A DNA stretch of 64,000 nucleotides from contig NZ_CP091036.1 of assembly GCF_021535135.1 (NCBI RefSeq), positions 2,728,001 through 2,792,000 of the forward strand, read 5' to 3'. Numbering within the stretch: the first letter of the stretch is position 1; each line of letters starts with the position of its first letter. Source of the stretch: Antarcticibacterium sp. 1MA-6-2. GTDB lineage: Bacteria > Bacteroidota > Bacteroidia > Flavobacteriales > Flavobacteriaceae. Both the position numbers and the translations under genes were made by a program. The notes under the pieces are model-generated. The model ran no database searches. It saw only the letters and a program-made list of their open reading frames with translations, and was not told where the DNA came from. Of this stretch, positions 1 through 63,796 are shown piece by piece.

Positions 1-1472
1 CTTACCAGGACCAGAAAACAAAGTTTTGCTGTAGCTAATTATCTAAATGACCAGGGAATTTCTATTGTATCATCAGAGTCGTTGTTGGTTGCAAATTCGC
101 CTCAAGTACTTTTTATTAATGACCTCCTGGAATTCTCTATTAATCCTGATGATCGAAACCTACGATGGAGTATCCTGAATTATTTAGTAAAAGAACTTAA
201 AGTTAGTGAACCGCACCAATTAATTGTAGCCACCCTGGATCAAAAGGAGAAGTACTTTTTTGAATGGTTGAATAAGTTTGGTATTACCTTTAAACTACAG
301 GAGATAAGAGAGCTGTCTCTCTATGAAGCTGCTGAATATATTATACGAAGTTTTTCCCTAATTAAAAGTTCTGATGCTTATCTCCAGGCTTACCTGGATT
401 TTATATTTGAAAAATCAACAAAAGCTGCCATAAGTGTAACTACCTTTTTGGAATACTGGGATCAATACAGTGAAAAACTTAGCATTGTTGCACCTAAAAC
501 AAATGATGCAGTACAAATAATGACTATTCACACCTCAAAGGGTCTTGAGTTTCCCGTAGTGATCTATCCTTTTGCAAATTCCAGGATAAAGGATATAAGT
601 AAAGAATATTTGTGGTTGCCACTGCCAGAAGATCTTGCAGATATTCCTGTAAGTTACTTTAAGGCATCTAAAAAAATGTTGGATTGGGGGAATTATGCTG
701 CTGAAGCCTATCAAAACCTCCTTGATCAAACCGAATTTGATGCGATTAACATTTTATATGTAGCCCTCACGAGAGCGTCTCAACAGTTATACATCCTCTC
801 CTGTTATGAATTTAAGAATGGGCAGGAGTGTGAAGACAAGGTTTCAGGATTGCTAATTGGTTATTTAAAGTCACAAAATAAGTGGAGCGGGGAAAAAACA
901 TATGAAATTGGTGAAAACCTTCCTGTTAAGGGAAGAGGTTTCTTCGGTAAAGCCTTACATCCGCAGGAATTTTACTCCTCTCCTACCCAAAATCAAATTG
1001 TGAAAATTGTAACTCTCTCCGGAAAGTTATGGGGGTCTACACAGGAAGAAGCCATCAATACCGTATTCTTGTACACGATATTCTTTCTGAAATTACTACT
1101 GCTGAAGATATTCCCGAAGCGATAAAAAAATACAGCAGAAAAAGTAAATTGGATATAACTGATAAACAGGAACTGGAACTGGAAATCTCCCGCATAATCT
1201 CGCATCCGGATCTTGCCGATTACTTTTCTGCTGATGCCGTGGTATACAGGGAACGGGATATAATTAGTCCTGAAGGCGAAATCTTAAGACCGGATAGGCT
1301 AAATTTTATAAACGACAGGGTTACCATCATTGATTATAAAACCGGAAAATTACAACCCGGTCATAAGCAACAAATGGAGGTCTATGCATCTATTCTTGAA
1401 AAGATGGATTTTATAGTAGAAAATAAAATACTCATTTATATTAATGACGATGTGAATATCATATTTGTTTAA
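1..1472 (+). CDS. UvrD/RecB-family helicase-nuclease (AddA-like), 5' end missing, one frameshift
   Basis: The reading frame is open from base 1, so the N-terminal ATPase part lies outside the window. About 490 residues remain. Visible helicase motifs are LTRTRKQSFAV near the start, IHTSKGLEFPVVI (SF1 motif V) around bases 525-565 and ILYVALTRASQQL (motif VI) near 750-790. The C-terminus carries the PD-(D/E)XK nuclease signature IIDYKTGKLQPGHKQQMEVY near 1330-1385. By family knowledge such proteins pair with an AddB-like partner for double-strand-break processing, and a candidate partner lies at 4428. The frame breaks at 1060-1064, where ACCGT is read. Restoring ACCGGT gives INTGILVHDIL and joins both halves, so I treat this as one gene with an assembly error. 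Exact pathway assignment (AddA versus another RecB-like helicase) is inference. Confidence 0.85.
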
Positions 1473-1502
1473 AAGATACCTAATTTTGTAAAAAACCTAA
1501 TC

Positions 1503-2702
1503 ATGTACGGAGAAATAAAAGAACACTTACAAAAGGAAATTGAACAAATAAAAGAAAATGGTCTCTATAAAAAGGAGCGAATAATAACTTCTCCACAGGG
1601 AGCAGTTATAAAAATTTCCACGGGACAGGAAGTAATTAACTTTTGCGCCAATAATTATTTGGGACTGTCTTCACATCCGGAAGTTGTACAGGCAGCCAAA
1701 GACACTATGGACACGCACGGTTTTGGGATGTCCAGCGTAAGGTTCATTTGTGGTACCCAGGACATACATAAGGATCTGGAGAAAAAAATAGCAGAATTTT
1801 ACGGGACTGAAGACACCATTCTTTATGCCGCAGCTTTTGATGCAAATGGAGGTGTTTTTGAACCCCTGTTTTCTGCAGAAGACGCAATAATTTCTGATTC
1901 CCTCAATCACGCTTCAATTATAGATGGGGTAAGGCTTTGTAAAGCGGCCAGGTATCGTTTCGAAAACGGAAACATGGAAGACCTCGAGAATCAACTCAAA
2001 GCAGCAGATGAAAAAGGAGCAAGATTTAAAATAATCGTGACTGATGGGGTTTTCTCAATGGACGGCCTTCTGGCTCCTCTTGATAAAATTTGTGACCTGG
2101 CAGATAAGTACAATTCCATGGTCATGATAGATGAATGTCACGCGACAGGATTTATAGGAAAAAATGGAATTGGTACGCCCGAAGCAAAAGGAGTAATAGG
2201 AAGAGTTGACATAATTACCGGAACTCTTGGGAAAGCTCTTGGTGGAGCCATGGGTGGTTACACAACAGGAAAAAAGGAAATTATTGATCTCCTGCGCCAG
2301 CGTTCCCGCCCTTATTTATTTTCAAACTCTCTCGCTCCTGCAATTGTTGGTGCATCAATAAAAGTGTTTGACATGCTTAAAAACGATACTTCATTAAGAG
2401 ATAAGCTGGAACAAAATACCAAATATTTCAAGAAGGAAATGAAAGCGGCTGGTTTTGATATAATCGACGGAGATTCAGCTATTGTTCCTGTAATGCTTTA
2501 TGATGCACAACTTTCCCAGGATATGGCAGATAGATTACTGGAAGAAGGTATTTATGTGATTGGTTTCTTTTATCCCGTTGTACCAAAGGACAAAGCGCGA
2601 ATTAGAGTGCAACTTTCCGCAGCCCATGAAAAAGAACACTTAGATAAGGCAGTTGCAGCTTTCAAAAAGGTAGGAAGGGAATTGAATGTTTTAACGAATT
2701 AG
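1503..2702 (+). CDS. kbl: glycine C-acetyltransferase (2-amino-3-ketobutyrate CoA ligase)
   Basis: This PLP enzyme cleaves 2-amino-3-oxobutyrate with CoA to glycine and acetyl-CoA, the second step of threonine degradation, in the cytoplasm. The 399-residue protein has the family's usual length and is full of hallmark segments: NFCANNYLGLSSHPEV near residue 45, DSLNHASIIDGVRLCKA near 135, MIDECHATGFIGKNGIG near 210, and the PLP-lysine segment TGTLGKALGGAMGGY near 240. It starts at ATG 1503, 30 bases after the helicase gene. It is followed by a 240-base gap holding the OmpA promoter. It lies between two recombination-nuclease genes but has no evident functional link to them. The alternative would be another alpha-oxoamine synthase (BioF, HemA), but the motif set and length fit Kbl best. 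Confidence 0.95.
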   Translation: MYGEIKEHLQKEIEQIKENGLYKKERIITSPQGAVIKISTGQEVINFCANNYLGLSSHPEVVQAAKDTMDTHGFGMSSVRFICGTQDIHKDLEKKIAEFYGTEDTILYAAAFDANGGVFEPLFSAEDAIISDSLNHASIIDGVRLCKAARYRFENGNMEDLENQLKAADEKGARFKIIVTDGVFSMDGLLAPLDKICDLADKYNSMVMIDECHATGFIGKNGIGTPEAKGVIGRVDIITGTLGKALGGAMGGYTTGKKEIIDLLRQRSRPYLFSNSLAPAIVGASIKVFDMLKNDTSLRDKLEQNTKYFKKEMKAAGFDIIDGDSAIVPVMLYDAQLSQDMADRLLEEGIYVIGFFYPVVPKDKARIRVQLSAAHEKEHLDKAVAAFKKVGRELNVLTN

Positions 2703-4427: not shown

Positions 4428-7186
4428 ATGGCATCTTTTCTCTCAAGCATTATTTCTAATCTTTTAAAAGATCATCCCGATCTTTCTGCATTTACGTTTA
4501 TCCTTCCCAGTAGAAGAGCAGGAGCTTTATTAAAAAAGGAAATCTCCCTTACTATTAATAAACCTGTATTTTCACCAGAGGTAGTTAATATAGAAGAGTT
4601 TACGGAAAAAATCTCAGGACTTTCTACAATTGACAATACCACCAGCCTCTTTGAATTCTACAGTATTTATGAAAAACTTACGCCCCGGGAAGAGCTTGAA
4701 GAGTTTGATACCTTCAGTACATGGGCGCAGACTCTCATTCACGACTTTAATGAGATTGACCGTTATCTTATTCCTCCGGATAAGATCTTCGATTACCTTT
4801 CCGAGATTCAGGATATAAATCACTGGTCTCTGGCCGCAGAGAAAACTCAGCTTGTTAAGAATTACCTGGCATTCTGGAGGAAACTTCCGCAGTACTACGA
4901 TGAGCTAACCAGGAATCTGCTCGAAAAGCAGGAAGGATATCAGGGTTTGATCTATAGAATGGCTGCTGAAAAAATTGAAAGTTTTGCACCAGGCAATGCT
5001 CCCTCTCACGTCTTTATAGGATTCAATGCCTTAAATAATGCAGAGCAAAAAATCCTGCAAAAGATGCTGGAACACGGGTCCCGGGTTTTTTGGGACATTG
5101 ATGAAGTTCATTTTAACGACAAGGATCATGATGCTTAGGCCTTTTCATAAGAGAATATTCTAAAAACTGGCCTTTTTATAAGGATCAAAAAATGGAGCTC
5201 ATCTCTACAGGCTACAAGGCTTCCAAAGACATTGAAATTTTAGGAATACCAAAGAGTATAGGACAGGCAAAATACGTAGGAGAAATATTAGAATCTCTTA
5301 CTCCCAAAGAACTACAATCAGCAGCCCTGGTCTTAGGTGAAGAATCTTTATTGCTCCCTATCCTCAACTCAATCCCTCCCGGTGTTCCTGCTGTGAATAT
5401 TACAATGGGTTATCCTCTAAAGTATAGCCCGTTTTCCTATTTGTTTGAAAAGCTGCTGGAATTTTATAAAGCTGAAGAAAGTAAATTCTATTACAAGGAT
5501 GTTATAAGCGTCCTCAGCAATCCGGTGATCCAGAGAATTACTGAAGACCGATGCAAAGACGTTATTTCCACTATAAAAAAAGAGAACATCCTTTATCTCG
5601 ATCAAAGCCAGATAAGTGGGTTATTTAATGACCCGGCACCGGATATTGTAAATTATATTTTTCCTAAAACAAAGCCTGGTCCTCCTGAGGCCATCCAAAA
5701 GATGGAATCAATTATCGAGGAACTAAAGAGAGGACTTGATGAAGCTGATGATGCTTTAAATCTTGAGTTCTTATCCAAATATCACCAAATTACAGAGCAG
5801 CTAAAAGAACTGGTTCTTTCTTACCCTCATATTAAGTCTATTTCCTCTCTCCTCCACTTCTACAGGGAATTGAGTAGCCAGCAAACTTTAGACTTTCAGG
5901 GAAATTCTTTTGAAGGATTACAACTAATGGGAATGCTGGAATCCAGAGTTCTGGATTTTGACACCGTTATTTTAACTTCTGTAGATGAAGGAATACTTCC
6001 GGCAGGAAAAAGCAACAATTCTTTTATTCCTTATGAACTAAAGAAAACTTTTGGACTACCAACCTATAAAGAAAAGGACGCTGTCTATACTTACCATTTC
6101 TACCACCTGTTGCAGAGGGCAAAGAAAATTTTTCTACTGCACAATACAGATACAGAAAGCCAAATGGGAGGAGAAAAAAGTAGATTTCTTATCCAGATGG
6201 AACTTGAAAAACAACCTCTGCACCAAGTTACTACAAAAATTATTACTCCTGAAGTAAAAAAAGTTTCCTCTCAACTCCAGGAAGTACAAAAAACTCCTGC
6301 TATCCTTGAGAGAATTAAGGAGTTGGCAAGTAATGGTTTTTCACCTTCAGCATTAACAACATACATAAGGAACCCTCTGGATTTTTATTTACAGTACATC
6401 CTCAAGATCCGGGATAAAGATGAAGTTGAGGAAACTGTAGCGTACAATACACTTGGAACTGTGGTACATAAAACGCTGGAAACCTTTTACAAACCTCTAA
6501 AAAATCAGGTATTAACTGAAAAAAATATTCAGGAGTTCAGGAAAAGAGCCACAGCTGAGGTCAAACACCAATTTGAACTGGAGTACAGCAAAGTTCCTCT
6601 TACAAAAGGCAAAAACCTCCTCATTTTTGAAGTAGCAAGACGGTATGTCACCAATTTTCTTAAGCTGGAAAGCAAATTCCTTCTGGAGGGAAAAAGAATT
6701 GAGATAAAAGAAATCGAAGCTAATCTCACTTCACAACTTTCTATTCCCGAACTGGATTTTCCTGTGAAGATTAGAGGAAATGTAGACAGGGTTGATCTTT
6801 ATGATGACGTGCTCCGCATTATAGATTATAAAACAGGCAAGGTAACTCAGCCCCAACTCGAAATATGTGAATGGGACGAGTTGACTACAAATTATGATAA
6901 GTACTCCAAGCCTTTCCAGGTGCTTATGTATGCTACCATGTTATTGGAAAATAACCGCGCAACGGGCACTGTGGAAGCGGGGGTTATTTCTTTTAAAAAT
7001 CTCAAAGAAGGTTTCCTTAAGTTTGGGGAAAAAGAGAGCAGCAGGGCACGCAAGAAGAATTGCTCGATAGAGGCGGAAACATTGGAAAACTTTAAAGTAC
7101 AGTTAAAAAACCTCATCCTGGAGATATGTGATCCTAAAATTCCGTTTCTTGAAAAAGAAATTAAAAAGGCTCATGGAAATTACTAA
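4428..7186 (+). CDS. PD-(D/E)XK nuclease family protein (AddB-like), one frameshift
   Basis: Corrected length is 918 residues. The N-terminus has the AddB-type segment FTFILPSRRAGALLKKEI in place of a canonical Walker A. The middle contains VILTSVDEGILPAGKSNNSF, a degenerate helicase motif. The C-terminal nuclease (residues about 640-900) shows FSPSALTTYIRNPLDFYLQY and the catalytic RIIDYKTGK. By family knowledge this is the non-motor partner of an AddA-like helicase, which probably is the gene at 1-1472, two genes upstream. The frame breaks at 5133-5140 (GCTTAGGC). Replacing it with GCCGGC gives HDAGLFIREY and joins both halves exactly. The stop overlaps the next gene's start by 14 bases, implying cotranscription. 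Confidence 0.85.
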
Positions 7187-9360: not shown

Positions 9361-9865
9361 ATGAAAATTAAATCCGCACATATATCAGATCTAAAAGAGA
9401 TAAAAATCCTCACAGAAACCTGTGCTGTAGCAATGCAGGAAAAGGGAATTTTTCAATGGAACGAACATTATCCTTCCCTTAAAAAACTTGAAACCGATAT
9501 AGAAAAGAAAGAATTATATGTCCTCAAGGAAGATGAAGAAATAAAAGGAATTGTTGTGCTGACGGACTTTATGGATGAGGATTATATTCCTATAGAGTGG
9601 CTTACTGATTCCGGAAATAATCTCTATATCCACCTAGCTTGCTACCGATCCCGAAGCCTGGGGTAAAGGTTATGGGCAGGCTCTAATGGATTTTGCTGAA
9701 GATTTTGCGCGGGGAAATAACTTTACTTCTGTTCGTTTAGACACTTTCAGTCAAAATAAAAGAAATCAGCGGTTTTACGAAAGCCGCGGATACCAGAAGC
9801 TGGGTGACATCTTTTTCCCGAAGCAGAGTGAATATCCCTTTCATTGCTATGAACTGGTTCTTTAA
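9361..9865 (+). CDS. GNAT family N-acetyltransferase, one frameshift
   Basis: Corrected length is 167 residues, the usual size. It transfers acetyl from acetyl-CoA to an unknown amine. The N-terminus runs through the acceptor region. The acetyl-CoA loop reads LATDPEAWGKGYGQALMDFA after correction (A.GxGxG-type Q/RxxGxG/A motif). The C-terminus has QNKRNQRFYESRGYQKLGD. The frame breaks at 9632-9638 (ACCTAGC). Restoring ACCGGC gives YIHRLATDPEAW and fuses the two halves. The gene stands alone. Confidence 0.85.
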
Positions 9866-13634: not shown

Positions 13635-14085
13635 ATGAATAAAATTAGAATCACCAAGCAGTTTTCTTTTGAAACAGGACATGCTTTATACGGCTACGAC
13701 GGTAAATGTAAAAATGTCCACGGGCATAGCTACAAATTAAATGTGACTGTTATTGGTACTCCCATTACAGATACTTCTAACGTAAAGTACGGAATGGTCA
13801 TAGATTTTGGTGATTTAAAACGTATTGTGAAAAGAGAAATAGTGGATAAGTTTGATCACGCTACAGTTTTTAACCGGAATACTCCTCATATAGAACTGGC
13901 AAAAGAATTGGAAGAAAGAGATCATAATGTCATTCTTGTTGATTACCAGCCAACCAGTGAGAATATGGTCGTTGATTTTGCTGAAAAAATTAAAAAGGAT
14001 CTTCCAGCTAAGTATTGAATTATTTTCCCTTAAACTGCAGGAGACTGAAACTTCTTTTGCTGAATGGTTTGCAAGTGATCAGTAA
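13635..14085 (+). CDS. queD: 6-carboxytetrahydropterin synthase / 6-pyruvoyl-tetrahydropterin synthase family, one frameshift
   Basis: Corrected length is 149 residues. The enzyme converts dihydroneopterin triphosphate to 6-carboxytetrahydropterin for queuosine, or in related proteins to a tetrahydropterin. Zinc-binding histidines lie in FSFETGHALYGYDGKCKNVHGHSY. GMVIDFGDLKRIVK, DHATVFN and the C-terminal QPTSENMVVDFAEKI and LQETETSFAEWFA are family hallmarks. The frame breaks at 14007-14013 (GCTAAGT). Restoring GCCGGT gives LPAGIELFSLKLQETET and extends the protein from 127 to the expected length. QueD versus PTPS cannot be decided without neighbours of the pathway, none of which is in the window. 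Confidence 0.87.
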
Positions 14086-15642: not shown

Positions 15643-16396
15643 ATGCAGGTACCCCAGGGTAAAAAAGTTTACTTTTCCAGTGATAACCACCTTGGTGCTC
15701 CCACGGCTGAAGAAAGTCGCCCGCGGGAAATCAAATTTGTCAACTGGCTGGATGAGATAAAAAAAGATGCCGCAGCAATTTTCCTGTTGGGGGATCTTTT
15801 CGACTTCTGGTTTGAATACAAACATGTGGTTCCTAAAGGTTTTGTGCGCATCCTTGGAAAACTGGCGGAGATAAAAGATAGTGGCATTCCCGTTTATTTT
15901 TTCGTAGGAAATCACGATCTCTGGATGCAGGATTATTTTGAAGAAGAACTTAATATTCCAGTTTTTCATCAGCCACAAGAATTCGATTTCAACGGAAAAA
16001 AATTTTTGGTAGGCCACGGTGATGGACTTGGTCCCGGGGATCATGGCTATAAACGAATGAAGAAGGTTTTTAAAAATCCTTTTTCAAAATGGCTTTACCG
16101 TTGGCTCCATCCCGACCTTGGAGTACCGCTGGCACAATATTTTTCAGTGAAGAATAAAGCAATCTCGGGAGAAGAGGATATGGAGTTTTTAGGGGAGGAT
16201 AAGGAGTGGCTCATCCAATACTGTAAAAGAAAATTAGAGTCCAAAGACTACGATTACTTCCTTTTTGGTCACTAAGCACCTGCCTATGGAAATTGACCTT
16301 AACGGAAAAGCTACCTATATCAATACAAGCGACTGGATTAACCATTATACTTATGCTGTTTTTGATGGGGAGAAAACTTTTCTGAAAAAGCTTTAG
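15643..16396 (+). CDS. lpxH: UDP-2,3-diacylglucosamine diphosphatase, one frameshift
   Basis: Corrected length is 250 residues. LpxH cleaves UDP-2,3-diacylglucosamine to lipid X and UMP in lipid A synthesis at the inner membrane face. Calcineurin-type metal motifs are complete: SSDNHLGAP (DxH variant), LLGDLFDFWFEY, FVGNHDLWM, GHGDGLGPGDHGYK and, after correction, FGHRHLPMEI. The frame breaks at 16271-16277 (ACTAAGC); ACCGGC restores Arg in the GHRH motif. It starts at ATG 15643 (MQVPQGKKVYF). The longer frame upstream overlaps the palindrome and is unlikely. Confidence 0.9.
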
Positions 16397-16910: not shown

Positions 16911-18607
16911 TCAGGCACTGATATCCTTAAGCTTTAGTTGCAGAGTTACATTGCCGTTGTATTCATTTTCATCTATACAATATGCTGCCTTAAAGGAATT
17001 GGTAGGTTGAATAAGCTGAAGTTTTGGGCCTAAATTAAATCCTATAGCATCAATAGTCTCTGGTTTGCCGCCCTGCCTGAGCTAAGCATTTAAGATGAAG
17101 GTCATCGCTGCCCACACATTTTCCATATCCGCAATCTTTAAGGTTTTGAGTCATAAAAACCGGAGACATATTCCCGGGACCGAACGGAGCAAACTGCTTC
17201 AGGATCCTGTAAAACTTCGGAGTTATGTCCTGCAGATCTATTTCAGCATCTATAAGGATCTCGGGAGTCAGCAACCTTTTATCTATACTTCCTGAAACCA
17301 CCTCTTCAAACTTCCTTTTAAAATTGAGGTATTCTGACTCTAATAAAGTCAAACCCGCCGCGTACTTATGCCCCCCAAACTGTTCAATATGATCCTTACA
17401 GGCTTCCAAAGCATCATACACATCAAAACCTTTAACAGATCTTGCCGAAGCCGCCAGCTTTTCGCCACTCCTGGTGAAAACAAGGGTCGGCTAAGTAGTA
17501 AGTTTCTGTCAATCTTGAAGCTACAATGCCTATGACTCCTTTGTGCCAGCTTTCATCATAAACTACAGTTGTAAATCTTTCCTTTTCCTCTAACTCTTCA
17601 ATTTGCGCAAGAGCTTCCTGGGTTATCACCTTGTCTGTATCCCGCCTGTCGGAATTAAAAGCTTCAATTTCTGCAGCATATTTTCTCGCAGTTTCTTCGT
17701 CATTTTCCACGAGGAGATTAACTGCATAAAGACCATGCTTCATCCTCCCTGCAGCGTTAATTCTGGGGGCAATAATAAAAACAACGTCCGTTATAGTTAA
17801 GGTTTCCTTTTTGACCTGTTCCAAAATAGCTTTAAAACCGGGACGGGGAGCTACATTAATTACTCTCAATCCGTGATAGGCGAGGATTCTGTTTTCTCCT
17901 GTAATAGGAACAATATCTGCTCCTATTGCAGTAGCGACGAGGTCCAGGTACGGCAGTAATATATCTATAGAAAGTTCGTTTTTTTGAATCCAGGCCTGCA
18001 TCAGTTTAAAGCCTACTCCACAGCCGCAAAGTTCCTTGTATGGATAATCGCAGTCTTCCCTCTTAGGGTCCAGAACAGCTACTGCTTTAGGAATTTCTGC
18101 ACCGGGCCTGTGGTGATCACAAATTATAAAATCAATATTCTTCTCGTGAGCATAAGCGACCTTTTCTATTGCTTTAATTCCGCAATCGAGAGCAATAATC
18201 AGGCTGATGTCATTGTCTGCTGCAAAGTCAATTCCCTTATATGAGACTCCGTAGCCTTCGTCATACCTGTCGGGAATATAGGTTGCCACATTAGGATAAA
18301 ATGATTTCAGAAAAGATGACATTAAGGCCACACTGGTAGTTCCATCTACATCGTAATCTCCATACACAAGAATATTTTCTTCCGCAGAAATAGCTTTTTC
18401 AATTCGCTCTATCGCCACATCCATGTCCTTCATTAAAAATGGATCGTGAAGATCATCGAGACTGGGCCGGAAAAATTTCTTTGCCTCTTCGTATGTTTCA
18501 ACGCCCCGCTGAACCAGCAATGAAGCAACCGGAATTCCCACTCCTAATTGAGAAGCAAGACGGGTTACTTTATCAGTTTCAGGTTTAGGTTTTAATGTCC
18601 AGCGCAT
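16911..18607 (-). CDS. recJ: single-stranded-DNA-specific exonuclease RecJ, two frameshifts
   Basis: Corrected length is 564 residues, normal for RecJ. This 5'-3' ssDNA exonuclease acts in recombination and mismatch repair. DHH-family motifs are LVYGDYDVDGTTSVALM near residue 78, IIALDCGIKA near 130 and FIICDHHRPG near 155. DHHA1 motif GGHKYAAGLTL lies near 415. The C-terminal OB domain follows. Two frames break at RCCGGY sites. At 17490-17496 the minus strand reads ACTTAGC; ACCGGC gives TETYYRPTLVFTRSG. At 17081-17087 it reads GCTTAGC; GCCGGC gives HLKCRLRQGGKPETIDAIG. The gene then runs to a stop at 16911. Two independent corrections giving one uninterrupted RecJ strongly support the assembly-error reading. 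Confidence 0.92.
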
Positions 18608-18717: not shown

Positions 18718-19389
18718 CTATTTTTTTCCGGCAACCACAATAACAATTTCTCCTTTTGGAGGCTTAGTCGTGTAATGCTGAAGCACCTCTGCCGCGGTTC
18801 CTCTTACAGTTTCTTCATGCATTTTCGTGATCTCCCTGGATACCGAAACCTGCCTCTCTTCCCCAAAATATTCAACAAAATGGGACAGGGTTTTTAGCAG
18901 TTTGTGAGGAGATTCATAGAAGATAAGGGTGCGTTCTTCTTCTGCTAAAAAGTTTAACCTTGTTTGTCTCCTTTTTTCACAGGAAGAAAACCTTCAAAAA
19001 CAAATTTGTCATTTGGAAAACCACTATTGACAAGTGCAGGCACAAAAGCAGTGGCGCCCGGTAGGCAGTCTACCTCAATTCCCGCTTCTACACACGCCCG
19101 GGTAAGAAGAAATCCCGGATCACTAATTGTTAAGCGTTCCCGCATCACTTATCAACGCAAAACTTTCTCCCGCCTGTATCCTGCGCACTATACCTTCAAC
19201 TGTTTTATGCTCGTTGTGCATGTGATGGCTGTGCATTGGCGTGTTAATCTCATAATGTTTAAGAAGCTTGCCGCTATTCCTGGTGTCTTCTGCAAGGATG
19301 TGATCTACTTCCTTCAAAACCCTGATCGCACGCAAAGTCATATCTTCCAGGTTTCCTATTGGAGTAGGAACGAGATAAAGTTTGGACAT
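18718..19389 (-). CDS. rsmI: 16S rRNA (cytidine1402-2'-O)-methyltransferase, two indels
   Basis: Corrected length is 223 residues. RsmI methylates the ribose of C1402 in 16S rRNA using S-adenosylmethionine. Motifs are YLVPTPIGNLEDMTLRAI, HILAEDTRNSGKLLKHY and, after repair, ALISDAGTPAISDPGFLL, followed by GATAFVPALVNSGFP. At 19129-19135 the minus strand reads GCTTAAC in place of GCCGGC. A second break near 18966-18972, in an A6/GGA stretch, needs one added base (PVKK(G/R)RQTRLNF) and looks like a homopolymer error. The C-terminus ends KGEIVIVVAGKK. The upstream neighbour at 20235 is a conserved unknown 9 bases away, probably the same operon. Confidence 0.88.
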
Positions 19390-20432: not shown

Positions 20433-21081
20433 ATGTTTCTCGAAAATACAGTAAATCACAAAGAGCAATTTGGCTGGATAGAAGTTATTTGCGGCTCAAT
20501 GTTTTCCGGTAAGACCGAAGAACTTATCAGGCGCCTTAAGCGGGCAAAATTCGCGAAACAAAAGGTAGAGATCTTTAAACCTAGCGATAGATAAACGCTA
20601 CCACGAAGAAATGGTGGTGTCTCATGATGCTAACGAAATACGGTCTACTCCTGTTCCTTCAGCTTCTAATATCAGGCTGCTGGCAGATGGTTGTGATGTG
20701 GTGGGAATAGATGAAGCACAATTTTTTGATGATGAAATAGTTACCGTGTGTAACGACCTTGCCAATCGTGGGGTGCGGGTAATAGTCGCGGGCCTGGACA
20801 TGGACTTTAAAGGCAATCCTTTTGGACCTATGCCAAATCTAATGGCCACTGCAGAATATGTTACAAAAGTTCATGCAGTATGCACCCGCACGGGGAATCT
20901 TGCGCAGTACAGTTACAGGAAGTCCATAAATGACGATCTTGTATTTCTTGGGGAGAACGAGGAATATGAACCTTTAAGCCGTGCCGCATATTACAAGGCA
21001 ATGCTCCGGGAGAGGGTAAAAAAATTACCTGTTGCCGATCCCGAAGTAATTAAGCCCGAAAAAAAGACGAACAATGTCTAA
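20433..21081 (+). CDS. tdk: thymidine kinase, one frameshift
   Basis: Corrected length is 215 residues. The enzyme phosphorylates thymidine for salvage in the cytoplasm. P-loop [15 protein letters not shown] lies near residue 22. The catalytic segment [13 protein letters not shown] lies near 95, and the lasso region [20 protein letters not shown] near 145. The frame breaks at 20579-20585 (ACCTAGC). ACCGGC gives [14 protein letters not shown] and unites the halves. The 3' end overlaps alr by 8 bases, an arrangement implying one transcript. A TAAATTTG sequence near 20377 may be the -7 element. Confidence 0.92.
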
Positions 21082-22184
21082 GACACGTGAAACCATTCTG
21101 GAGATTGATCTGGGTGCCCTTGAGCACAATTACCATTTTATGCGCTCCAAAATAAATGGGGATATAAAATTTATGGCAGTTGTGAAAGCTTTTGCTTACG
21201 GAAACGATGCTACTAAAATTGCTAAAAAACTAAGCAAGCTGGGAGTCGATTACTTTGCCGTTGCCTATGTAGACGAAGGTGTTGCTCTAAGAAAAGGAGG
21301 TATAGAAAAACCCATTCTGGTACTTCATCCCCAATCGATAAATTTTGAAAAAATTATTGAAAATTGCCTGGAGCCGAGTATCTATAGCGAATTCGTCCTT
21401 CGGGAATTTATCAAAACAGCCGAACAGCTTGATCAAAAGAATTATCCAATTCATTTAAAGCTAAATACCTACTTAAACCGCTTAGGTTTTAGTGAGGACG
21501 ATCTTGAGAAGGTTTTTACAAAACTTGCAACTACTGATTCAATTAAGATAACGGGCGTTTTTTCACATCTTGCGGCCAGCGAAGATTGGAAAGAACGCGA
21601 ATTTACACTTCAACAGTTGAATCTTTTCCGAAAGTTGGCTTTTACAATAACCGAAAAACTCGGTTACCAGCCATTGCTCCACCTAAGTAATACTTCAGCA
21701 ATAATAAATTATCCCGAAGCTGCTTTTCATATGGTACGCAGTGGAATAGGATTGTACGGATTTGGAAATGATCCTGAAATAGACAAACAACTTAAACCAA
21801 TTGGCACCCTTAAAACGATAATTTCTCAAATTCATCATCTAAAGGAAGGTGCAACCGTGGGTTACAATCGGGCTTTTAAGGTTACTGAAGACACGAAAAT
21901 GGCTACCATTCCTATTGGCCATGCCGATGGGATCAACAGGCAGTATGGAAATGGCCGTGCAGGAGTATATGTCAATGGCAAATATGCCCCTATTATTGGA
22001 AATGTTTGTATGGATATGATCATGATCAACATTTCCGGAATAGAGTGCGAAGAAGGAGACGAAGTCATAATTTTTGGAGGACCACAGCACGTCACGAAAT
22101 TTGCTTACAACGGGAATACTATTTCTTATGAGGTTATTACTGAGCATTTCACAACGTGTTAAAAGAGTAATTATAGAAGACTAG
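21074..22184 (+). CDS. alr: alanine racemase, frameshift near 3' end
   Basis: Corrected length is 369 residues. This PLP enzyme interconverts L- and D-alanine for peptidoglycan. The PLP lysine lies in FMAVVKAFAYGND (residue about 38). The catalytic Tyr lies in VGYNRAFKV. GHADGINRQYGNGRA and GNVCMDMIMINI are family motifs. The uncorrected frame stops at 22162 with an atypical tail EHFTTC. At 22139-22145 ACTGAGC is read; restoring ACCGGC gives ISYEVITGISQRVKRVIIED and a stop at 22182. This is the least obvious of the RCCGGY lesions because it removes only the last residues. Confidence 0.92.
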
Positions 22185-39579: not shown

Positions 39580-42361
39580 TTAATAGACCAGTATCTTCGC
39601 AGTTCCTACCTGCTTTCCTCCTCGGGAAGTCCTTAATATGTACATCCCTGGTGTATAAAATTTGATCTCAAATCTATCAATATAGCGAATGAGATTATTT
39701 TCAGAGAGCAGCCTACCCTGCATATCAAAAATCTGGATTTCAAGATCGTCTCCTTTGGATATTACCGTTAGGTCCTCCCCGGCCCTTACGGGGTTTGGAT
39801 ATACCTCAAGAGTATTCTCTCCGGGAACAAAGATTTTCACTTCGTTTGTTTTAATCTCCCGTCCGTCACTTAAGAGGATTGTTACATAAAAATTGCTATA
39901 CCCAGCTTCCATTACACTATCTGTAACGGTAAATTGCAAATTATTAAAGGGAGCGGTAAATTCTTCAATATTAGATATTTCTCCGCCTGAATCTCTTCGG
40001 AAGGTAATTTTTTCAATCCCTGTGCTGGTACTGAGATTTAAAGTGGCATTAACCATAGCTCCCTCATCCAGCAGCGCATAAAAATTCTGGTAATAACATA
40101 AAACTCCCTGTTCTTTATAATTAACCGCAAAACCTGCTGGTCCCCGGGAACCTTCGAAAATGGGAACAACTGACCAAAAATCGCTGCTGAAAGTGTCCTT
40201 ATTAATAACGGCACTTGTGTCCTGCACTTCCAGGAAATCCTGCATATAAAAAGATCCCAGGTTCCGGAGTTGATAAGCTGTCGCATTTTCAACGCTCTCC
40301 CATGACAGCAGCACCTCCTCTTCACAGTTGTACACCACTTCAGGAATTAATTCCTGAGAAACAGCGAAATAATCAGAAAGAAATTCTGTTGAGCCTATTG
40401 TCATTCGCAGCTGAGCTCTTCCGGAAATATCAGAAGTATTCCATTTATAGTAGCCCTTTTTAAGATCTACATTTTCATCCAGGGTCACCCAGCCTGACTC
40501 ATTGAGATTTACCTCCAGTTTTCCTGAATTAGCTGCAAAAGAGGTTTTCCATCTCAGGTAATTAGGTGTCTGGTTTCTAATTACTGCATCATCGGCAGTT
40601 GGAAAGGTCCATTCAAATTCATCTTCAGCAACGGTAGTATAAGCTATAGAAAACTTTTGAACATCGCTGATAAGATTTTCTGTAGCAACTTCAATTATAT
40701 ATTCCCCTGCCACAGGATCTTCCAGAGTGATAATTTCAGAAGGATTTAGATGATCTTTCCCTCTCTGTGCGGGAGCGTTAAGATTTTCTGGGTCCTTATT
40801 TAAAATCCAGGGTAGCCACAGGTTTCCTGAGGGATCTGTGATCTGCAGGTTAAGATCATTTTTTAAAGTTACTTCATCCCCGGGATTTGCTGCGGGATCG
40901 ATCCAGGAGATGGCTATCTTAAAAGATTTTATTCCTTCAGGAATTGTAATACTGAAATCTTCAGGACCATTACCGTATATTTCTCCTTCAAGATAATTTC
41001 CTGCCTCTATGATTTTCATACTTTCATAAGCATTAAGATTTCCATATCCCGCTGAAAAATCTAAATGCTCTGCTCCCACGTCTTCTGCTCCGGCAATTAA
41101 AACTGCTTTTATGAGGGAAAATTCAGGAAAAACGCCCTCTTTCTTCCTGTAAAGATCCTGAAGCAGCACCGCAGTTCCTGAAACAAGAGCAGCTGCATCT
41201 GAAGTTCCTTCAGGCGCGTAAGCTACCAGTTCGGGTTTTAAGCGGCCGTCATTAGCTGGGCCTTTAGAACTTCGTGCTTCCACCTTCTTTTCTCTGTCTA
41301 CCGCTCCTACAGTGAGAGCATTTTTTGCCATTTTGAAGTTCCCGGTCATATTTGCTGCTCCCGGGATTCCTGCATAATTTCCTGTCTCCGGAGTTTCCTG
41401 GCCTTTGTTTCCGGCTGAGAAAACATGAACCAGCTCCGGGATTTCATTCACTTGCGCGTCATAAACCGCGGCTTCGTTACTATATGAAGTCTCTATACCT
41501 GTACCATAAGAATGGTTTTGAACGTAAATTTCATTTTCTAAATAGGAAGAATTTTCGTCTGGAAATAATTGTAGAAAACTGGAACTGCTTACAACTGCTG
41601 CAGGAGCCACCCCCTTACCTCTACTGCTGCTGTTTCCAGCTCCCACTATGAGTGTCGCGATTAAAGTCGCGTGCCTGTCCAAATTTTCTGCTTGAAGCCC
41701 GTTTAGCTCATACCTAGTTTTTTAGATCAATATCTGTGGTATCAAAAAGAAATTCTTTAATAGACACCTTAAGATTTTCTCCACGAACTTCAGGATAACG
41801 GTGATGTACAAAATTTATATTGTTAACCGTTAGATCATGTTTATTAACCGCAGTTTCTACCTGGGGTCGTTTATATAAACTAATGTGGGTGACAAGATCA
41901 CTTTTCAGAAGTCTATTAAAATCCCCCGGGGATGCTCTTATTATAAAATAGTTTTGGTACTCCTGAAGTATTTCCATGCCTCGAATTTCTTTAAATTCAA
42001 CGGCATCTACAGTGTTAACCGACAGAAGAACAGGAGCTTCAGGCCGAAACCTTTGCAGGGCAGGAGCCAGTTTCCAGTCTGCAGAAATTTCGTACAGAGT
42101 ATCATCAGCAGTAAATTTCAGATCTGAAACAGAAGAAACCTGAATAATATGTGCATCTTTTGCATAAGATTTGACAATTTTTACCCCGGATAAATTTATT
42201 TCCTTTGGAAATTTTCCACTCTTAAGTAAGTAAAATCCTTCCTTTATAAAATTTTTAACATTTACTTCTTTTGCCCGCGGAGGCAGCAGGAATGGTTCCT
42301 GAGCCGTAATCAACTGAATATTAGCTGCCAGAAAAAAGAGTATCAGTAAATATTTTAGCAT
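39580..42361 (-). CDS. subtilisin-like serine protease with T9SS type A sorting domain, one frameshift
   Basis: Corrected length is 926 residues. A signal peptide (MLKYLLILFFLAANIQLITA) leads into a propeptide-like region. The S8 triad is plausible: Asp in LFDTTDIDLKN, His in LDRHATLIATLIVGAGNSS and Ser in APEGTSDAAALVSGTAVLL. Middle domains include a jelly-roll-like ISWIDPAANPGDEVTLKNDL. The C-terminus LEVYPNPVRAGEDLTV to the final KILVY is a type A T9SS sorting domain, directing export across the outer membrane and attachment or release. The frame breaks at 41712-41718. The minus strand reads ACTAGGT; ACCGGT gives DLKNRYELNG. Confidence 0.9.
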
Positions 42362-45344: not shown

Positions 45345-48300
45345 TTAGTCCAGTTTTTTCTTCTCCAGCCCTTTCTGAAGCACCTCTTTTATACCTTCAA
45401 GATTATCTGAAAATTGCATCATTTGAGATAAGATCTGCGCCATTTCATTTTTATTTCCGAAGCCTTTCAGCTTATTGTTCTTCACAAATGTTTCCTGAAT
45501 GGTTTTCCACCGCTCCTGCTCCACCTCATCAAGTTGATCTACAAGCTCCTTGTACTTTAAGAGATTGGCTTCAGCAGAAGAAGTTAGCGTCTGTGATTCA
45601 CTTTCATAATGGGAAAGCAACAGCCTGTCCAATTCTTTATCGTTCATAATCGGCACCACCTTCGCCACCAGTTTATTCATATCCCGATAGGAACCCTGCA
45701 GTTTAAACGAAGGCTGCGTCCTGTATTCATCTTCCATAGCTGCACTTTTTATATAGGCAGCATTCACCTTCAAAACGGTATTCCTAATCTCTATGACTTT
45801 TTCAAGAACAGAGGTGTACTCCTGGATCTCCTGGTTACTATGACTTCCCACCAGCTGTGCCTCCTGGTTATTATTCTCAATCCTGTTAAGCAGGGTGTAA
45901 ACATCCTCAAAATGAGTGCTGCTCAACTGCTGCAACAACGGATTTGCAGTCAGGGAATTCTCCACAAGGCTTAATTTGAAAAGATGTTCAGTATCTCCAA
46001 TAATATCCCCCAGGTTGTAAATGTCTGCCCGGTTTGCAAGCATATCGGGAATCCTGAATTTATCACTAGGTTTCTGTATATGGATTTCCTGCCATTATCA
46101 CGCAGAACTTCTTTCCGCGCAGATCGTATGTTTTCGACTTTCCGTTGTAGACTCCTTCGATTTTTCTAGTACCGTCTGAAAGTGAAATAAACTTCTGCAG
46201 AAATTCCGGGTTGCAATGCTGAATATCATCCAGATAAAGCATCACATTATTGCCCATTTCGAAAGCCAAATTCAGCTTTTTCAACTCTTCCCTGGCAGCT
46301 GAATTTGTTGCCGAAATTGGATCTACTGAAGTTATCTCATGGCCAATTGCCGGACCGTTGATCCTGATGAATACCAGACCAAGCCGATCGGCAATGTATT
46401 CCATCAGGGTGGTTTTTCCGTATCCCGGAGGTGAGATAAGCAGCAACATTCCACTTCTGTCTGTCCTTGTTTTGTCACCCACTGTACCCAATTGCTTGGC
46501 GAGATTATCTCCAAACAAAGGAAAATAAACCTGGTCAATCAGTTTGTTCCGAACAAAAGAAGTGAGAACACGGGGTTTAAGTTCCTCCAATTTCAGTTCT
46601 TCCCGAAGGGTCTTTGTGATCTCCTGCTTCGCCTTTCTGAAGGAATTGTAAGCAGGAATATCATTATTGCTAAACTCCTCAAGTTGAGAAATGAATTTAT
46701 GATAATTGAAATTAAATACGCCCTCCTTAAAGCTGGGATGCTCCCCGGTAAGTCCTTCAATAGCAGCTGCGGGAAATACTGCTTTTGTCTTAGAAATTGA
46801 TTCGTCTCCAAACAGTATAATGCATACCACCTCATCAATATAGTTAAGAAGTAAATCCTTTTCTGATCCTTCCTGTTTACTGTTCACAAAAGCCGATACC
46901 CACTGCTTTATCAGCCTAATCTTACCTTTGTAATCGTTAACGGCTTCGTAACTGTTTTTAAATTTAAGATCTGCCTGCTGATTTTTCAGGGCTTTTAAGA
47001 AATCCTCTTTTAAAGAAATTGCTACACTGCTGCGTACGAACTCATCATCATTTTGAAGTTCTTCAAAGAGGTAAATGGCAATTTTTTCATTTACTGCGGA
47101 AGAAAACAAACCTGTCTCTTCTGCAAAAATTTCTATTTGCTTCTGAAGATTCTGAATAAGAAAATCATACTCTTTTGTAGCCGGAAAAATAGTTAAAACT
47201 TCCCCCGAAGCTTTTAAAGTTTGGTCCAGTTCTTTTCGCGCCTCCACCGGAAGGCTATTCCAGAAATATTGCGCGTAACTTCTCAGCTGTGGAGAAAAAA
47301 TCAGCAATCCCAATTCGTGGTGCTTGTGGACCAGAACACTTAAAATTTTAGCTGCATCGACATCGTGTACTCCTTTGATGTAGCCTTCGGAATAATCGCT
47401 GCTGCTTTCCTTTTGAACGATCTTAAGTAATTCCTCTTCTGAAGCTTTCAACAATTCTTCGCCGGGTAGTTCCCTGAATAATTTATAAGCAAGGTAGGAC
47501 GACCTGTAGACACGTTCATTTTCAGAAACAAATTCCTGCTCCCACAGTTTTTGTGAATTCAGCAGAGTTTCATCTTTTAGTTCCTGATAAAAATCGGTTC
47601 CGGTCAGATGATAATGCGGCGCGCCATCTTTTAAAACAATGGTAAGGTCCAGCGGCTGTTTGTTTACCCCGAATTTATGCTTCCCAAGCCTGATCACATT
47701 GTCTCCATCCTCGTATAGTTCCAGCTTATCCTTGAGCCTGCGCAAGGCATTTTCCCTTGCTGTTTTAAGACTGGTCTCAATTTCTTCGGCTTTCCCGCTG
47801 TCATCCAGTTCTACGAGCTGTTTAATTATGTCCCTTACCTTATTGATCATAAGGTCGGCCGCAAAATAACCGTGGATTTCTGATGCCGAAGTAAATCGTT
47901 CAGCTTTGGAATGAGCTCCTTTTAAAATTCTTTCCGCAGCATTTTGAAGCGCCATTGCTTTTTTATTCCGCTTCTCAACCAGGGCATTTTTCCGGGCTTC
48001 GAAAGCGCCATGAACTTCTTCCCGCTTTTCGATGATCAACGAAATAAATTCCTCAAAATCGGTAAATTTCCCTTCCAGTTCTTCCAGCTGAATCGAGATC
48101 TTTGTCTGGAATTCATCACATTTTTCGGGAGTGCTTAAGCAATGTCAAGGTAATTGATGATACTTTGATCGATAAGCTTTAGCTGCGCAGCAAAATCAGC
48201 TCTCGCCTCTGCACTTCCCAAAGAGGTTTTCTTGTTTCTTAAAGCCGCTTTTAATTGATTAATTGTTGCAAAAATGAGGGAGATATTATCGATGATCTTT

Positions 48301-50245
48301 GTGGAATGAGCCGTGTCTTCTATGTCAAGATTGGAAACGATCTCGATCAACAATTCCAGATCTGCGGCGATTTGATTCACCTCCTCCTCCAGTTTTTTAA
48401 TCTCTACAACCTTCGATACTTTTTCCAGTGCCTGCTGCTTCTCCTGAACAGATTTCTGATATGGCTGCAGTGCTTTTTCATCCAGAAGGAACTTCACACA
48501 TTTCTCTGAGATCTTCTGGGTTTGTTCAGCTATTTCTGCCTCCAGTTCAGTAATGAACTCGGCATCAACATAACGAACATCTTTCAGGTTTATCACCTCT
48601 CCCCTTAACTTCCTTAATTCAGTAAGGAAAAATACAAAGTCATTAATGGTCTTGTAAGGAGAACTTTTAATTTTTGCAAACAAAGCCTCTGCTTTCTCCC
48701 GAATTTCGTGTGTCTGTTGCTGTGCATTTTTCTTAAGTTGTACAACTTTTTCAAACTCATCAATAGCAGCATTTGCCGCCTTATTGATCTCGCTTATCGG
48801 CTCATTAAGCTGTTGTGCGTCCGGCTCCGGCAACCAGTAATAGGAATCTAATATATCTTTAGAAAATTTAGAAATATCCAGATATAAGCCGCCGTAGTTA
48901 TCTTCCTTGTTCAGGAGATTCACAAGCCCGTTCACCTCTGCCATTGCTTTTACAATATCCTTATTTCCAATTTTATAAAGCAGGGTGTCCTCGTGCTGCG
49001 AAGGCATAAAATCTCCTTTTAAATAGGGAGTCTGCCAGATTTGTATCACGTGATGCTTTGTCTGCTCATTTTCAGTTTTAAAATAGCAGAGTTCTCCATT
49101 TTTCAGAATTGTAAATCCGTTACAAATGATTGGCGTCAGGATCTCCTGGGTAATAATATTGTACGACATAAGGTTGTACAATCCTTCCTTTGAAGAGTAG
49201 AACACATACAGGTAATCCTCGCCGTTTGGAGAGGCAATCTTTTGTTCAAATTTTACATTGTCAATGCCATTGCCCAGGAGCTTATACTCTCCCGTTTGCA
49301 GGTAATAGCTTAGGTGGGGAAAATGATTCCCTGATCATCTGGCAACAATAGACAGGAGTTTTTGATGCTCTCGATTTTCTTTACCTCCTTCAGTTTGTGA
49401 TTGTAAACAAAATATCTAGGCTCTTCCTGGAAAGGTTTTATTTCCAGGGCTATAAGATTTCCCAGGTTGGCATAACGATACTGCCCGTCATCAAGGGTTT
49501 GATCCAGTTGCTCTACAGGTTCAGCAAGAATTCCCTTTCCTTCCTTAGTATTATCTTCAATTTTAATAGTAAGATCTCCCCCAACAGTTTCCACAAAAAC
49601 CTTATCCAGGATCGATACATGGGGATGAGCGCCATAACGGTGCATATCCCGGGTAGCTTCCTGCCACTTAAACTCGTGCTGCGCCTGATATTTAAATTCG
49701 TGATCGCTGCGGTTGTCTATGTACTGAATCGAATTATCTTTTATAAGCCACTTGAAAGTCTTGATATCTGTCACACTATCGCTAAGCTGAAAGATCATGT
49801 GGAGGTAATTGCCTATAATGGCAAATTTGGAAAAGATGGTATTCCGGTAATATTTATAGAGGTTGGCAAAATCTGAAACAAAAGTTTCATCCTGTAAAAT
49901 ATCCAGTGGTCGTGGTTCAAAACGATTGTCTTTAAACTCGTAGATACTGAAAACATCAGATAAGGTTATCTCTGTACGCAGCCCAAAATGCACATTATAA
50001 CCGAACACACAGGTGTTGCCAAGGGAAATGATGTCCCGGGCAATACAGTTATTCTCTGTGTTGATACGGTCATTGGAGATAAGTTTCGTTTCCAAGGAAC
50101 CAAAAACTTCTTTCCTGTCCAGGTTTAATTTTTGAAGACGCTCCTGGAGATCAGATTTCTGCTTCTGTAAGCGATTCTGAATGATCTCATAGGTACCGCC
50201 ATCCAGTGCCCGAGCATCTTTTTGTTTTAATTGATCTACTGCCAT
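45345..50245 (-). CDS. very large AAA-type ATPase (DNA repair ATPase-like), last gene of the PspA-flotillin operon, three frameshifts
   Basis: Corrected length is about 1631 residues. The N-terminus is coiled coil (KSDLQERLQKLNLDRKEV) followed by about 450 residues of beta-rich repeats with Tyr/Phe strands. Next come long helices and coiled coils (residues about 480-800), a helical middle, and a AAA domain near residue 1265: Walker A LISPPGYGKTTLMEYIA, Walker B VMLYLDDIQHCNP and sensor region CVIMAGNPYTETGDKFRIPD (after repair). No membrane segment is evident. Frames break at 49308-49315 (minus ACCTAAGC for ACCGGC), 48133-48140 (minus GCTTAAGC for GCCGGC) and 46065-46071 (minus ACCTAGT for ACCGGT). 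Each repair joins adjacent frames exactly. Databases usually name such proteins DNA repair ATPase, but membrane-stress partners upstream suggest an envelope role. Confidence 0.85.
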
Positions 50246-62463: not shown

Positions 62464-62498
62464 GATTTATTTTAAATACTTATTAACTAACTCTTTGT

Positions 62499-63796
62499 TT
62501 ATTCCTGAGCTACTCCCGTATTTTTCACATTTTGTCCCTTCATCGGCCAGGGAGAATCGGCAGGGCCGCTGTTTTCAACTGTAATTTTATGGAGTTCAAT
62601 AGTTGAACCTGCTTTTGCTTCTACGTAAACGGTGCCGTTAGCAATAATGGTAGGAGAATTAACAGCTCCATCACCCAGCTCCAGTTCTTTAAGTAGTTCG
62701 CCATCAGGATTAACAATGTACAAGCTACCGTTTGTTGCACCGACATAAATATTTCCCTCCTCATCAACAGCTAAGTACACTTTCAACCACATCAGCATCG
62801 AATGTCCATATTATGGATCCATCAGTTAGATTTAGTGATAACAATCCTCCCCTTGAACTAGTATAGAGTTCTCCATTTGGACCTATAACCACACCAGAAT
62901 TGGAAGCATCATTCACCTGAGTTTGCCACTTAATACTTCCGCTCCCTCCTTCATCTGTAATTGCTACAACGTGAGTTGCGGTAGTGTAATAGATAACTCC
63001 CTCTGCCATAGATAATGATGATCCATGTATAGCAGAACCAGTTCCAACTGGATCCCACTTTGGGGCACCATTGGCAGTTGACAACGCATACAACAAACCT
63101 TCATCTGTATTTAATATATAAAGAGTACTTTCATCAGGACTTAATACGGGAGCGGTATAAAAAGCTCCAACCCCGGTAACTTCCCACCTTCTCTCACCAT
63201 CTAAAGTCCAGGAAAAAACACCTCCTCTTCCGGCACCCTGAAATCTGGAGCCATGGTAAATATTTCCCTCTGAATCAACGGCGGGAGTATTATTTGAAAC
63301 TTTCGTGTTAATCCCCCCACTCCACATCACACTCCCATCTTCGGCGTTAAATTTTGAAATAGCTTGATCCTCAACCCACGCATTTAAATAGATATTACCG
63401 TCAGGTCCTATTGAAGGTGCATTGGGAAGCTCAACTCCCAGAGCATTTGAAGCCCATTTTAATTCTGCATCTTCTCCTTGATCTATTACAGCAACAAGGG
63501 AACTTTCAGCACCTGCCCGGGATTCTACGTAAAATATCACGCCATTATCTCCTATCACAGGAGCACTGGATCCGTCGTTAATATTTGCTACTTGAGTACT
63601 CTGTAGTAAATTCCCAGACAATGCTGGCAGGGAAATCATTTGCACCTGGATCTGGATCCGGTTCTGGATCCGGCTCTGGTTGTTCGTCGGGATAGAAACG
63701 AGAAAAATCTTCCTTATTCACTTCAATATCCTTGCTGCAGGAGCTTAATAAAAAACAGTAAAACAGAGGTGTTAATACAAGTTTTAAATATTTCAT
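62499..63796 (-). CDS. PQQ-type beta-propeller lipoprotein, two frameshifts
   Basis: Corrected length is 431 residues from ATG 63796 (MKYLKLVLTPLFYCF). The lipobox lies in LLSSCSK, followed by an acidic Pro/Asp linker (PEPDPEPDPDPG). The body has repeated propeller strands: IVWEFTTEY, SIGPDGNIYLNA, VDSEGNIYHGSRF, LSPDESTLYILNTDEGLLYA, IGPNGELYTSS and VDEEGNIYVGATNGSLYIVN. At 62770-62776 the minus strand reads ACTTAGC; ACCGGC gives VVESVPAVDEEGN. A second +1 shift near 63600-63610, in the first strand, does not fit the RCCGGY pattern and is unresolved. Likely a surface-exposed or periplasmic scaffold. Confidence 0.82.

Follow-up and report, generated by a model that had tools for sequence, protein, structure and literature searches.

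Why are so many genes interrupted in one 64,000-nucleotide stretch of the Antarcticibacterium sp. 1MA-6-2 genome, and why do the interruptions so often fall where relatives carry the palindrome RCCGGY? The stretch, hereafter the window, covers bases 2,728,001-2,792,000 of a single contig of 4,383,004 bases. An original prediction, made from its letters, listed 22 breaks in otherwise intact genes, took each for a corrupted RCCGGY site and proposed that a modified base in this motif had been consistently misread by a basecaller. Our analysis supports that interpretation, through a genome-wide depletion of the motif and a fitting methyltransferase, with the nanopore platform entering as an inferred element. 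We consider it very probable that the breaks are consensus sequencing errors, arising from 5-methylcytosine (m5C) in RCCGGY that was misread by a nanopore basecaller, and not mutations. Direct observations are the depletion, the identity of the motif, where the breaks lie, the locus with the methyltransferase, and the intact motifs in another carrier of the enzyme pair.

Depletion of RCCGGY across the genome

As originally claimed, the window holds no intact RCCGGY (0 counted, against a mean of 18.2 and a standard deviation of 4.5 in 100 shuffles). CCGG with other flanks is indeed present, although the number first given, about a hundred, was too low: we count 180, divided into 84 YCCGGR, 53 YCCGGY and 43 RCCGGR. 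Abundant intact RCCGGY elsewhere in the same assembly had been named in advance as an observation that would speak against the prediction, and the genome-wide count returned only 62 intact sites in 4.38 Mb (42 ACCGGT, 19 ACCGGC/GCCGGT and one GCCGGC), against reversed-pattern controls of 904, 1,038 and 199, respectively. GCCGGC occurs in all 15 other genomes of the same genus, which form our same-genus comparison set, at 81 to 739 copies per genome.

We then compared each R-X4-Y string with the expectation derived from the other flanks of the same tetramer, in a 464-kb sample composed of the window and 20 stretches of 20 kb, one of which was picked for holding the sole GCCGGC. Between R and Y, CCGG was found 7 times where 304 were expected, and it is the only one among 136 R-X4-Y strings that falls below 0.4 of its expectation. 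Two of these 7 survivors lie within the stretch picked for the single GCCGGC. Extrapolated from the sample, ~2,870 RCCGGY would be expected genome-wide, of which 2.2% survive.

Contexts were read for 44 of the 62 survivors (all 42 ACCGGT, the GCCGGC and 1 of the 19 ACCGGC/GCCGGT). Over both strands of these 44 sites, the flanking base is T in 45 readings, A in 34, C in 7 and G in 2; that is, A or T stands directly outside the motif in 79 of 88 strand readings, a figure with no background of intact RCCGGY contexts behind it. An Rfam search of twelve survivor-bearing stretches gave no match. Survivors also cluster in the genome that contains the window (G000), with 5 in 11 kb at 875,518-886,812 and 4 in 2.4 kb at 2,401,079-2,403,505, and such clusters might mark undermethylated stretches.

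Gene breaks and the strings found at them

The broken genes include that of the AccC biotin carboxylase, found in two open reading frames (ORFs) that match TIGR00514 at 1-161 and 168-444, and that of a beta-ketoacyl-ACP (acyl carrier protein) synthase III, broken between its two Pfam domains (PF08545 and PF08541), together with those of RecJ, thymidine kinase, alanine racemase, an LpxH-like phosphoesterase and an S9 peptidase. By established pathway knowledge, the loss of all these genes, those of AccC and a FabH-type synthase included, is hardly compatible with a living cell, in line with the earlier argument that essential genes cannot all be dead. The 22 listed sites, and one that the list had missed, are given in window coordinates with no strand assigned; numbers of relatives refer to protein comparisons, alignments are DNA alignments, and G003 and G011 are the relatives used for residue and DNA comparison.

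1060..1065: deletion-like listed site; splits a UvrD/RecB-like helicase gene; frame change near 1062, 38 relatives; N-T-G in G011; helicase families on the fragments
5133..5140: corrupted RCCGGY, GCTTAGGC; frame change, 48 relatives; residues A-G in G011
9632..9638: corrupted RCCGGY, ACCTAGC; frame change, 52 relatives; RCCGGY at the column in 4 alignments
14007..14013: corrupted RCCGGY, GCTAAGT; end of a PTPS-family gene (PF01242); frame change, 56 relatives, median 13972; P-A in G011
16271..16277: corrupted RCCGGY, ACTAAGC; LpxH-like phosphoesterase; frame change, 56 relatives; RCCGGY in 7 alignments; GHRH; NCBIfam lpxH below cut-off (fragment)
17081..17087: corrupted RCCGGY, GCTAAGC; frame change, 47 relatives; residues C-R
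17490..17496: corrupted RCCGGY, GCTAAGT; recJ; frame change, 46 relatives; RCCGGY in 5 alignments; RecJ fragment 4-355 of 546, just under cut-off
18966..18971: corrupted site off the original list; same gene as 19129; RCCGGY in 3 alignments, window one base short; close to where the out-of-frame stretch from 19129 closes
19129..19135: corrupted RCCGGY, GTTAAGC; minus-strand gene; RCCGGY in 4 alignments; downstream stops in the relatives' frame; G-T-P-A-I-S-D in a relative
20579..20585: corrupted RCCGGY, ACCTAGC; thymidine kinase (PF00265); frame change, 32 relatives; RCCGGY in 4 alignments, including G003 and G011
22139..22145: corrupted RCCGGY, ACTGAGC; near the end of alanine racemase (PF01168/PF00842); alignments stop at 22138-22141, last residues unmatched; RCCGGY in 3 alignments
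24457..24463: corrupted site, GCTTAGT; S9 peptidase gene; cluster with one relative; A-G in G011
25925..25931: corrupted RCCGGY, ACTTAGT; S9 peptidase gene of 24457; frame change, 7 relatives; RCCGGY in one alignment; PF00326 cut at 151/213
26037..26043: corrupted RCCGGY, GCTTAGT; S9 peptidase gene of 24457; frame change at 26039; RCCGGY in G003
30613..30619: corrupted RCCGGY, ACTAAGC; accC, the two TIGR00514 parts in consecutive ORFs; RCCGGY in 4 alignments
32083..32090: corrupted RCCGGY, ACCTAGGC; beta-ketoacyl-ACP synthase III (FabH-type), the two Pfam domains in two ORFs; RCCGGY in 2 alignments
36951..36958: listed site, GCTTAGGT; frame change against one relative, which has V-G-G and not T-G/A-G
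37778..37784: corrupted RCCGGY, GCTTAGC; M16 peptidase gene; frame change against one relative; RCCGGY in G011 at the column
41712..41718: listed site, ACCTAGT; upstream of a subtilase fragment; S8 domain from profile position 54; upstream ORF without Pfam match
46065..46071: listed site, ACTAGGT; closes an AAA-domain fragment whose profile match stops with the ORF at 109/131; next ORF without Pfam match
48133..48140: listed site, GCTTAAGC; placed by ORF layout only
49308..49315: listed site, GCTTAGGT; DUF3686 protein; PF12458 1-287 and 324-448 in consecutive ORFs
62770..62776: listed site, GCTAAGT; PQQ/beta-propeller-like gene; ORF layout; PF13360 2-134 of 233 on the fragment

We read the sequence at each of the 22 listed places. 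Relatives' proteins were mapped to the window by tblastn, with two-frame clusters taken as frame changes, and 15 of the resulting 17 clusters lie no more than 35 bases from a listed site; the two off the list are at 7353 (42 relatives) and 19360 (1 relative, doubtful). By eye, window 7324-7379, around the former, holds a G run with one extra G, like an ordinary homopolymer error. A frame break is supported at 17 of the 17 listed sites that have ortholog coverage, in agreement with the breaks first reported; coverage is thin at 24457, 36951 and 37778, where the cluster comes from one relative each. The cluster at 19129 derives from antisense ORFs, and the break of the sense gene was seen in a separate comparison: in this minus-strand gene, which carries both 19129 and 18966 and which we take to be rsmI, an out-of-frame stretch with stops starts at 19129 and the frame is restored at 18966. 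Relatives' alignments end at 22139, and at 26037 the frame switches at the site. Of the five listed sites without ortholog coverage (41712, 46065, 48133, 49308 and 62770), 49308 shows a split Pfam domain, 46065 a truncated AAA domain and 41712, as weaker support, a truncated S8 domain, with 48133 and 62770 identified from ORF layout only. A DNA search with window 41000-60999 in six genomes found little orthology.

The original prediction held that restoring one RCCGGY repairs each break exactly. We examined this only through the residues and DNA of relatives, which fit RCCGGY at 15 of 17 sites by residues and at 11 of 22 by DNA. A site was taken to fit when residues of G003 or G011 no more than 3 positions from the break could be encoded by RCCGGY (T-G, A-G, R, P-A or P-V); those of the nearer relative did so at the 15 sites, whereas a random window of seven residues does so in 34% of cases (P 7e-6). 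The misfits are 36951 (V-G-G) and 37778, and at 37778 the relative's DNA still has RCCGGY. In the DNA alignments, where a relative's RCCGGY was counted if it was flanked on each side by 5 or more matches to the window among 8 bases, the motif covers the break in at least one relative at 9632, 16271, 17490, 19129, 20579, 22139, 25925, 26037, 30613, 32083 and 37778.

In the same alignments, none of the relatives' RCCGGY is identical in the window, in 522 alignments or at 160 distinct window sites, whereas the other CCGG flank classes are kept at 18 of 166, 16 of 195 and 7 of 125 sites (Fisher P 7e-6 against RCCGGY), and six of seven R-X4-Y control palindromes keep 6 to 27 sites each. When stricter flanks were required and insertions or deletions (indels) were scored solely within the hexamer, 0/311 alignments kept RCCGGY and 23/311 had an indel in it, against medians of 12% and 1.5% over 1,978 hexamers. 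Counting by the 160 distinct sites gives the fairer measure, because 0/522 and 0/311 pool many relatives per site and are non-independent. The window shares 78-79% DNA identity with the best same-genus genomes, and nearly all of the 80 best named relatives of a MatE-family window gene belong to Flavobacteriaceae of marine or saline habitats, among them Salinimicrobium, Gillisia, Salegentibacter and Christiangramia. At 12929, RCCGGY is found in 10 alignments and the window has ACTAGC with its length unchanged, which may be a natural substitution.

All listed places except the deletion-like 1060 (21/22) fit R-(CCTAG, CTTAG, CTAAG, CTAGG, CTGAG, TTAAG, CTTAGG, CCTAGG or CTTAAG)-Y, but by themselves these strings are no mark of a break, because the same set is present at 66 window places. 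A count of CTTAG/CTAAG/CCTAG-type strings, proposed with the original prediction and run on the 464 kb, bore out part of the expectation: CTAAG/CTTAG shows the top enrichment among 512 R-X5-Y strings (154, against 108 by flank expectation and 92 from relatives), whereas CTAG, CTGAG and TTAAG show no excess. CTTAGG/CCTAAG occurs 40 times against 10.5 and 18.6 expected, and several unrelated six-base strings equal or exceed it. Elsewhere in the window, ~70 bases at 50379-50453 match 18 places in G011 and one in G001, resembling a dispersed short repeat.

A C5 methyltransferase, restriction enzyme and Vsr locus

A cytosine methyltransferase had been predicted elsewhere in the genome, and one is present: PF00145, the C5 methyltransferase family, has a single match in the whole genome, in a gene that overlaps a restriction enzyme gene. 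Together with a Vsr endonuclease they form one locus at about G000:C1 3,943,900-3,947,500.

G000:C1 3,943,900-3,944,979: restriction enzyme, 359 amino acids; PADLOC Type II restriction enzyme model, 438 bits
G000:C1 3,944,957-3,946,141: C5 methyltransferase, 394 amino acids; overlaps the restriction enzyme gene; PF00145 E 5.9e-48; TIGR00675 over cut-off
G000:C1 3,946,515-3,946,934: Vsr mismatch endonuclease, 373 bases upstream of the methyltransferase gene

A tyrosine recombinase lies directly beyond Vsr, and the opposite flank holds a transfer RNA gene and, by eye, recombinase-like ORFs. Framed in this way, the three genes at L137:10853-17493 look like an integrated island, a label given by eye; the recombinase-like gene there spans two overlapping ORFs, and Rfam places pieces of group II intron D1-D4 at L138:5955-6242, ~8.5 kb past the island. 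Across the 15 other same-genus genomes the restriction enzyme has one weak 23% match and none in 14; because it is nearly absent from them, the island looks acquired, and the restriction–modification (R-M) system was apparently brought in on a mobile island.

The specificity of the methyltransferase is suggested by its kin. Among the matches listed (120 of 6,702 methyltransferase homologs) most are unnamed, and P0053, at 65% identity, bears the source-given name NmeDIP; on a Moraxella plasmid, a methyltransferase of 53% identity has a Cfr10I/Bse634I nuclease (PF07832) as its neighbour. RCCGGY would thus be the probable target, fitting both the error motif of the genome and the pairing seen in kin. 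Vibrio phages H31 and H32 encode relatives of the methyltransferase (57% and 55% identity), which possibly provide anti-restriction modification of RCCGGY.

A search for a Cfr10I-like endonuclease had also been suggested, but by sequence the restriction enzyme does not belong to the Cfr10I/Bse634I family. It has no PF07832 match at E <= 1, and BLASTP shows no significant similarity between it and the Moraxella PF07832 protein; on these grounds we reject a Cfr10I-family endonuclease as the partner of the methyltransferase. Its structure model (mean predicted local distance difference test score 75.8, predicted template modelling score 0.50) has no PDB match at E <= 0.001, and the best Foldseek matches are a YaeQ protein (E 0.005) and then the nicking enzyme N.BspD6I (E 0.2), so that the fold was placed in no family.

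One other genome provides a natural control. Among 397 family genomes searched, drawn from a larger group, the only other carrier is G183, with a restriction enzyme 76% identical and an overlapping methyltransferase 63% identical, and it keeps 492 ACCGGT and 616 ACCGGC/GCCGGT (total 1,108, GCCGGC being left out of the count). Its ratios of intact sites to reversed controls are 0.45 for ACCGGT and 0.72 for ACCGGC/GCCGGT, against 0.05 and 0.02 in the window genome. G183 retains the motif, and therefore carriage of the R-M gene pair, taken apart from its activity, does not by itself erase RCCGGY.

This control bears on the idea that RCCGGY was really purged by selection and that the frameshifts are ordinary pseudogenes. 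Restriction-site avoidance is a known phenomenon, and the restriction enzyme here adjoins a methyltransferase that fits the motif. Yet substitutions would be enough for avoidance, and what is lost here are reading frames, at places where relatives have RCCGGY and in genes such as those for AccC and the FabH-type synthase, while G183, a carrier of this gene pair, keeps 1,108 sites. The broken frames and G183 lead us to reject the view that restriction avoidance removed the motif, a view that we regard as very unlikely. Site-specific breaks in a genome where Vsr and a restriction enzyme adjoin the methyltransferase could also be real scars, small insertions left by faulty repair after the cell's own restriction enzyme or Vsr had cut RCCGGY. 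That would mean scars at ~98% of sites in one living cell, accC included, and T/A in the core is, by reasoning, unlike the products of end filling; we find this scarcely credible.

If the breaks are sequencing errors at a modified motif, the nature of the mark has to be considered, which had been given as N4-methylcytosine (m4C) or m5C. We favour m5C over m4C because the genome has one C5 enzyme and no PF01555 match, and because Vsr is present. A PF01555 profile search of the genome gave no match, other N4/N6 families, Dnd and TET-like families not being searched, and on this basis we reject m4C made by a PF01555 enzyme. Other enzymes might still place m4C, phosphorothioate or a bulkier cytosine derivative in the motif, and this would suit a failure that is near total and rich in insertions, the published cases, as excerpted, being mainly mismatches or missed bases. 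The presence of a C5 methyltransferase of RCCGGY kin and the lack of a PF01555 match argue otherwise, and visual inspection of the island ORFs turned up no additional modifying enzyme; we judge a mark of this kind unlikely.

The methylation reading and known systems

In the reading we prefer, that of m5C misread in RCCGGY, the cell would carry a Type II R-M system on a mobile island, whose C5 methyltransferase would mark RCCGGY, probably at the first C, the position methylated by VchM and EFSG_00659. Nanopore reads of native DNA would have been basecalled by a model ignorant of the mark, so that nearly every methylated RCCGGY would be called as another string, at the visible sites mostly with CCGG replaced by five or six bases (R-CTAAG-Y, R-CTTAGG-Y) and sometimes with a base lost, and polishing without short reads would have left ~98% of sites wrong. 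We infer methylation in this strain, the C that is marked, the nanopore platform and the basecaller as agent.

Errors of this origin are known, and we cite them, like the enzymes below, from excerpts of their sources. In Klebsiella pneumoniae, ~70% of nanopore consensus errors lay in Dcm motifs with the default models of 2019 (PMC6591954); in five Listeria genomes, 1,533 to 5,670 mismatches were tied to GCAGC/GCTGG and largely removed by amplification (PMC10687267); and in meningococci, 152/208 wrong single-nucleotide polymorphisms were at 5mC and 77/103 wrong indels at or beside methylated bases, the wrong indels being missed bases with one exception (PMC12506013). In the excerpts available to it, our literature search did not find RCCGGY treated as a nanopore error motif.

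Several results weigh against our interpretation. The frame change at 7353 is well supported and unrelated to RCCGGY. The control palindrome RCGCGY is likewise kept at 0/53 sites, other hexamers too are kept 0 times (for example, GAGGCA, 0/91) or have higher indel rates, and indels in or near the site do not single out RCCGGY (29/160, 18%, against 8 to 17% in the other classes). The strings that can be named, after adding CTTAAG, CCTAG and CCTAGG, explain ~110 of ~297 missing sites in the 464 kb; many corrupted forms are therefore untraced, the rest being scattered and including base losses (1060 and 18966). The specificity of the methyltransferase comes from kinship. Finally, whereas the excerpts on Dcm, Listeria and meningococci describe mainly mismatches or missed bases, at most ortholog-visible sites here insertions break the frames. 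There is a slim chance that the mark is bulkier than m5C, or that m5C here disturbs the pore far beyond known cases, giving a near-complete and mainly insertional erasure of the motif; if so, unpolished genomes would carry legible maps of unusual modifications.

For the genome at hand, ~2,800 sites in a public one-contig sequence are probably wrong, as extrapolated from the 464 kb, and false pseudogenes such as accC follow from them. More generally, assembly errors by themselves can disclose the target of a methyltransferase, to which a gene can afterwards be assigned; other unpolished nanopore genomes could be surveyed in this way.

Among close known systems, NmeDI of Neisseria meningitidis has methyltransferase, restriction enzyme and Vsr together and m5C in RCCGGY (PMC7973814), and its enzyme cleaves on both sides outside the site (12/7 RCCGGY 7/12; PMC4081073). 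The present locus likewise unites the three genes, with the NmeDIP-named P0053 as methyltransferase homolog, but differs in host and island; the likeness is one of gene set and excerpted description. In Vibrio cholerae, VchM, said to be an orphan enzyme, methylates the first C of RCCGGY to m5C (PMC8559950), and EFSG_00659 of Enterococcus faecium 1,141,733 marks the same base, with 748/750 covered motifs methylated and AgeI protection seen (PMC6328761). Our C5 methyltransferase, of putative RCCGGY specificity by kinship, is likened to both by description; unlike the excerpted VchM, it has a restriction enzyme and Vsr adjoining it. Cfr10I also recognises RCCGGY (PMC4081073), and the Cfr10I/Bse634I systems are approached through the related Moraxella methyltransferase with its PF07832 nuclease, from which the endonuclease here departs by lacking PF07832 and significant BLASTP similarity. 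As in the modification-mediated nanopore errors excerpted above (Dcm, Listeria GCAGC/GCTGG and meningococcal 5mC), the errors are confined to the motif or methylated bases and outlast polishing. Enzyme specificity and error mechanism are thus of known kinds, and the near-total failure, with mostly insertions at the visible sites, is the unusual part.

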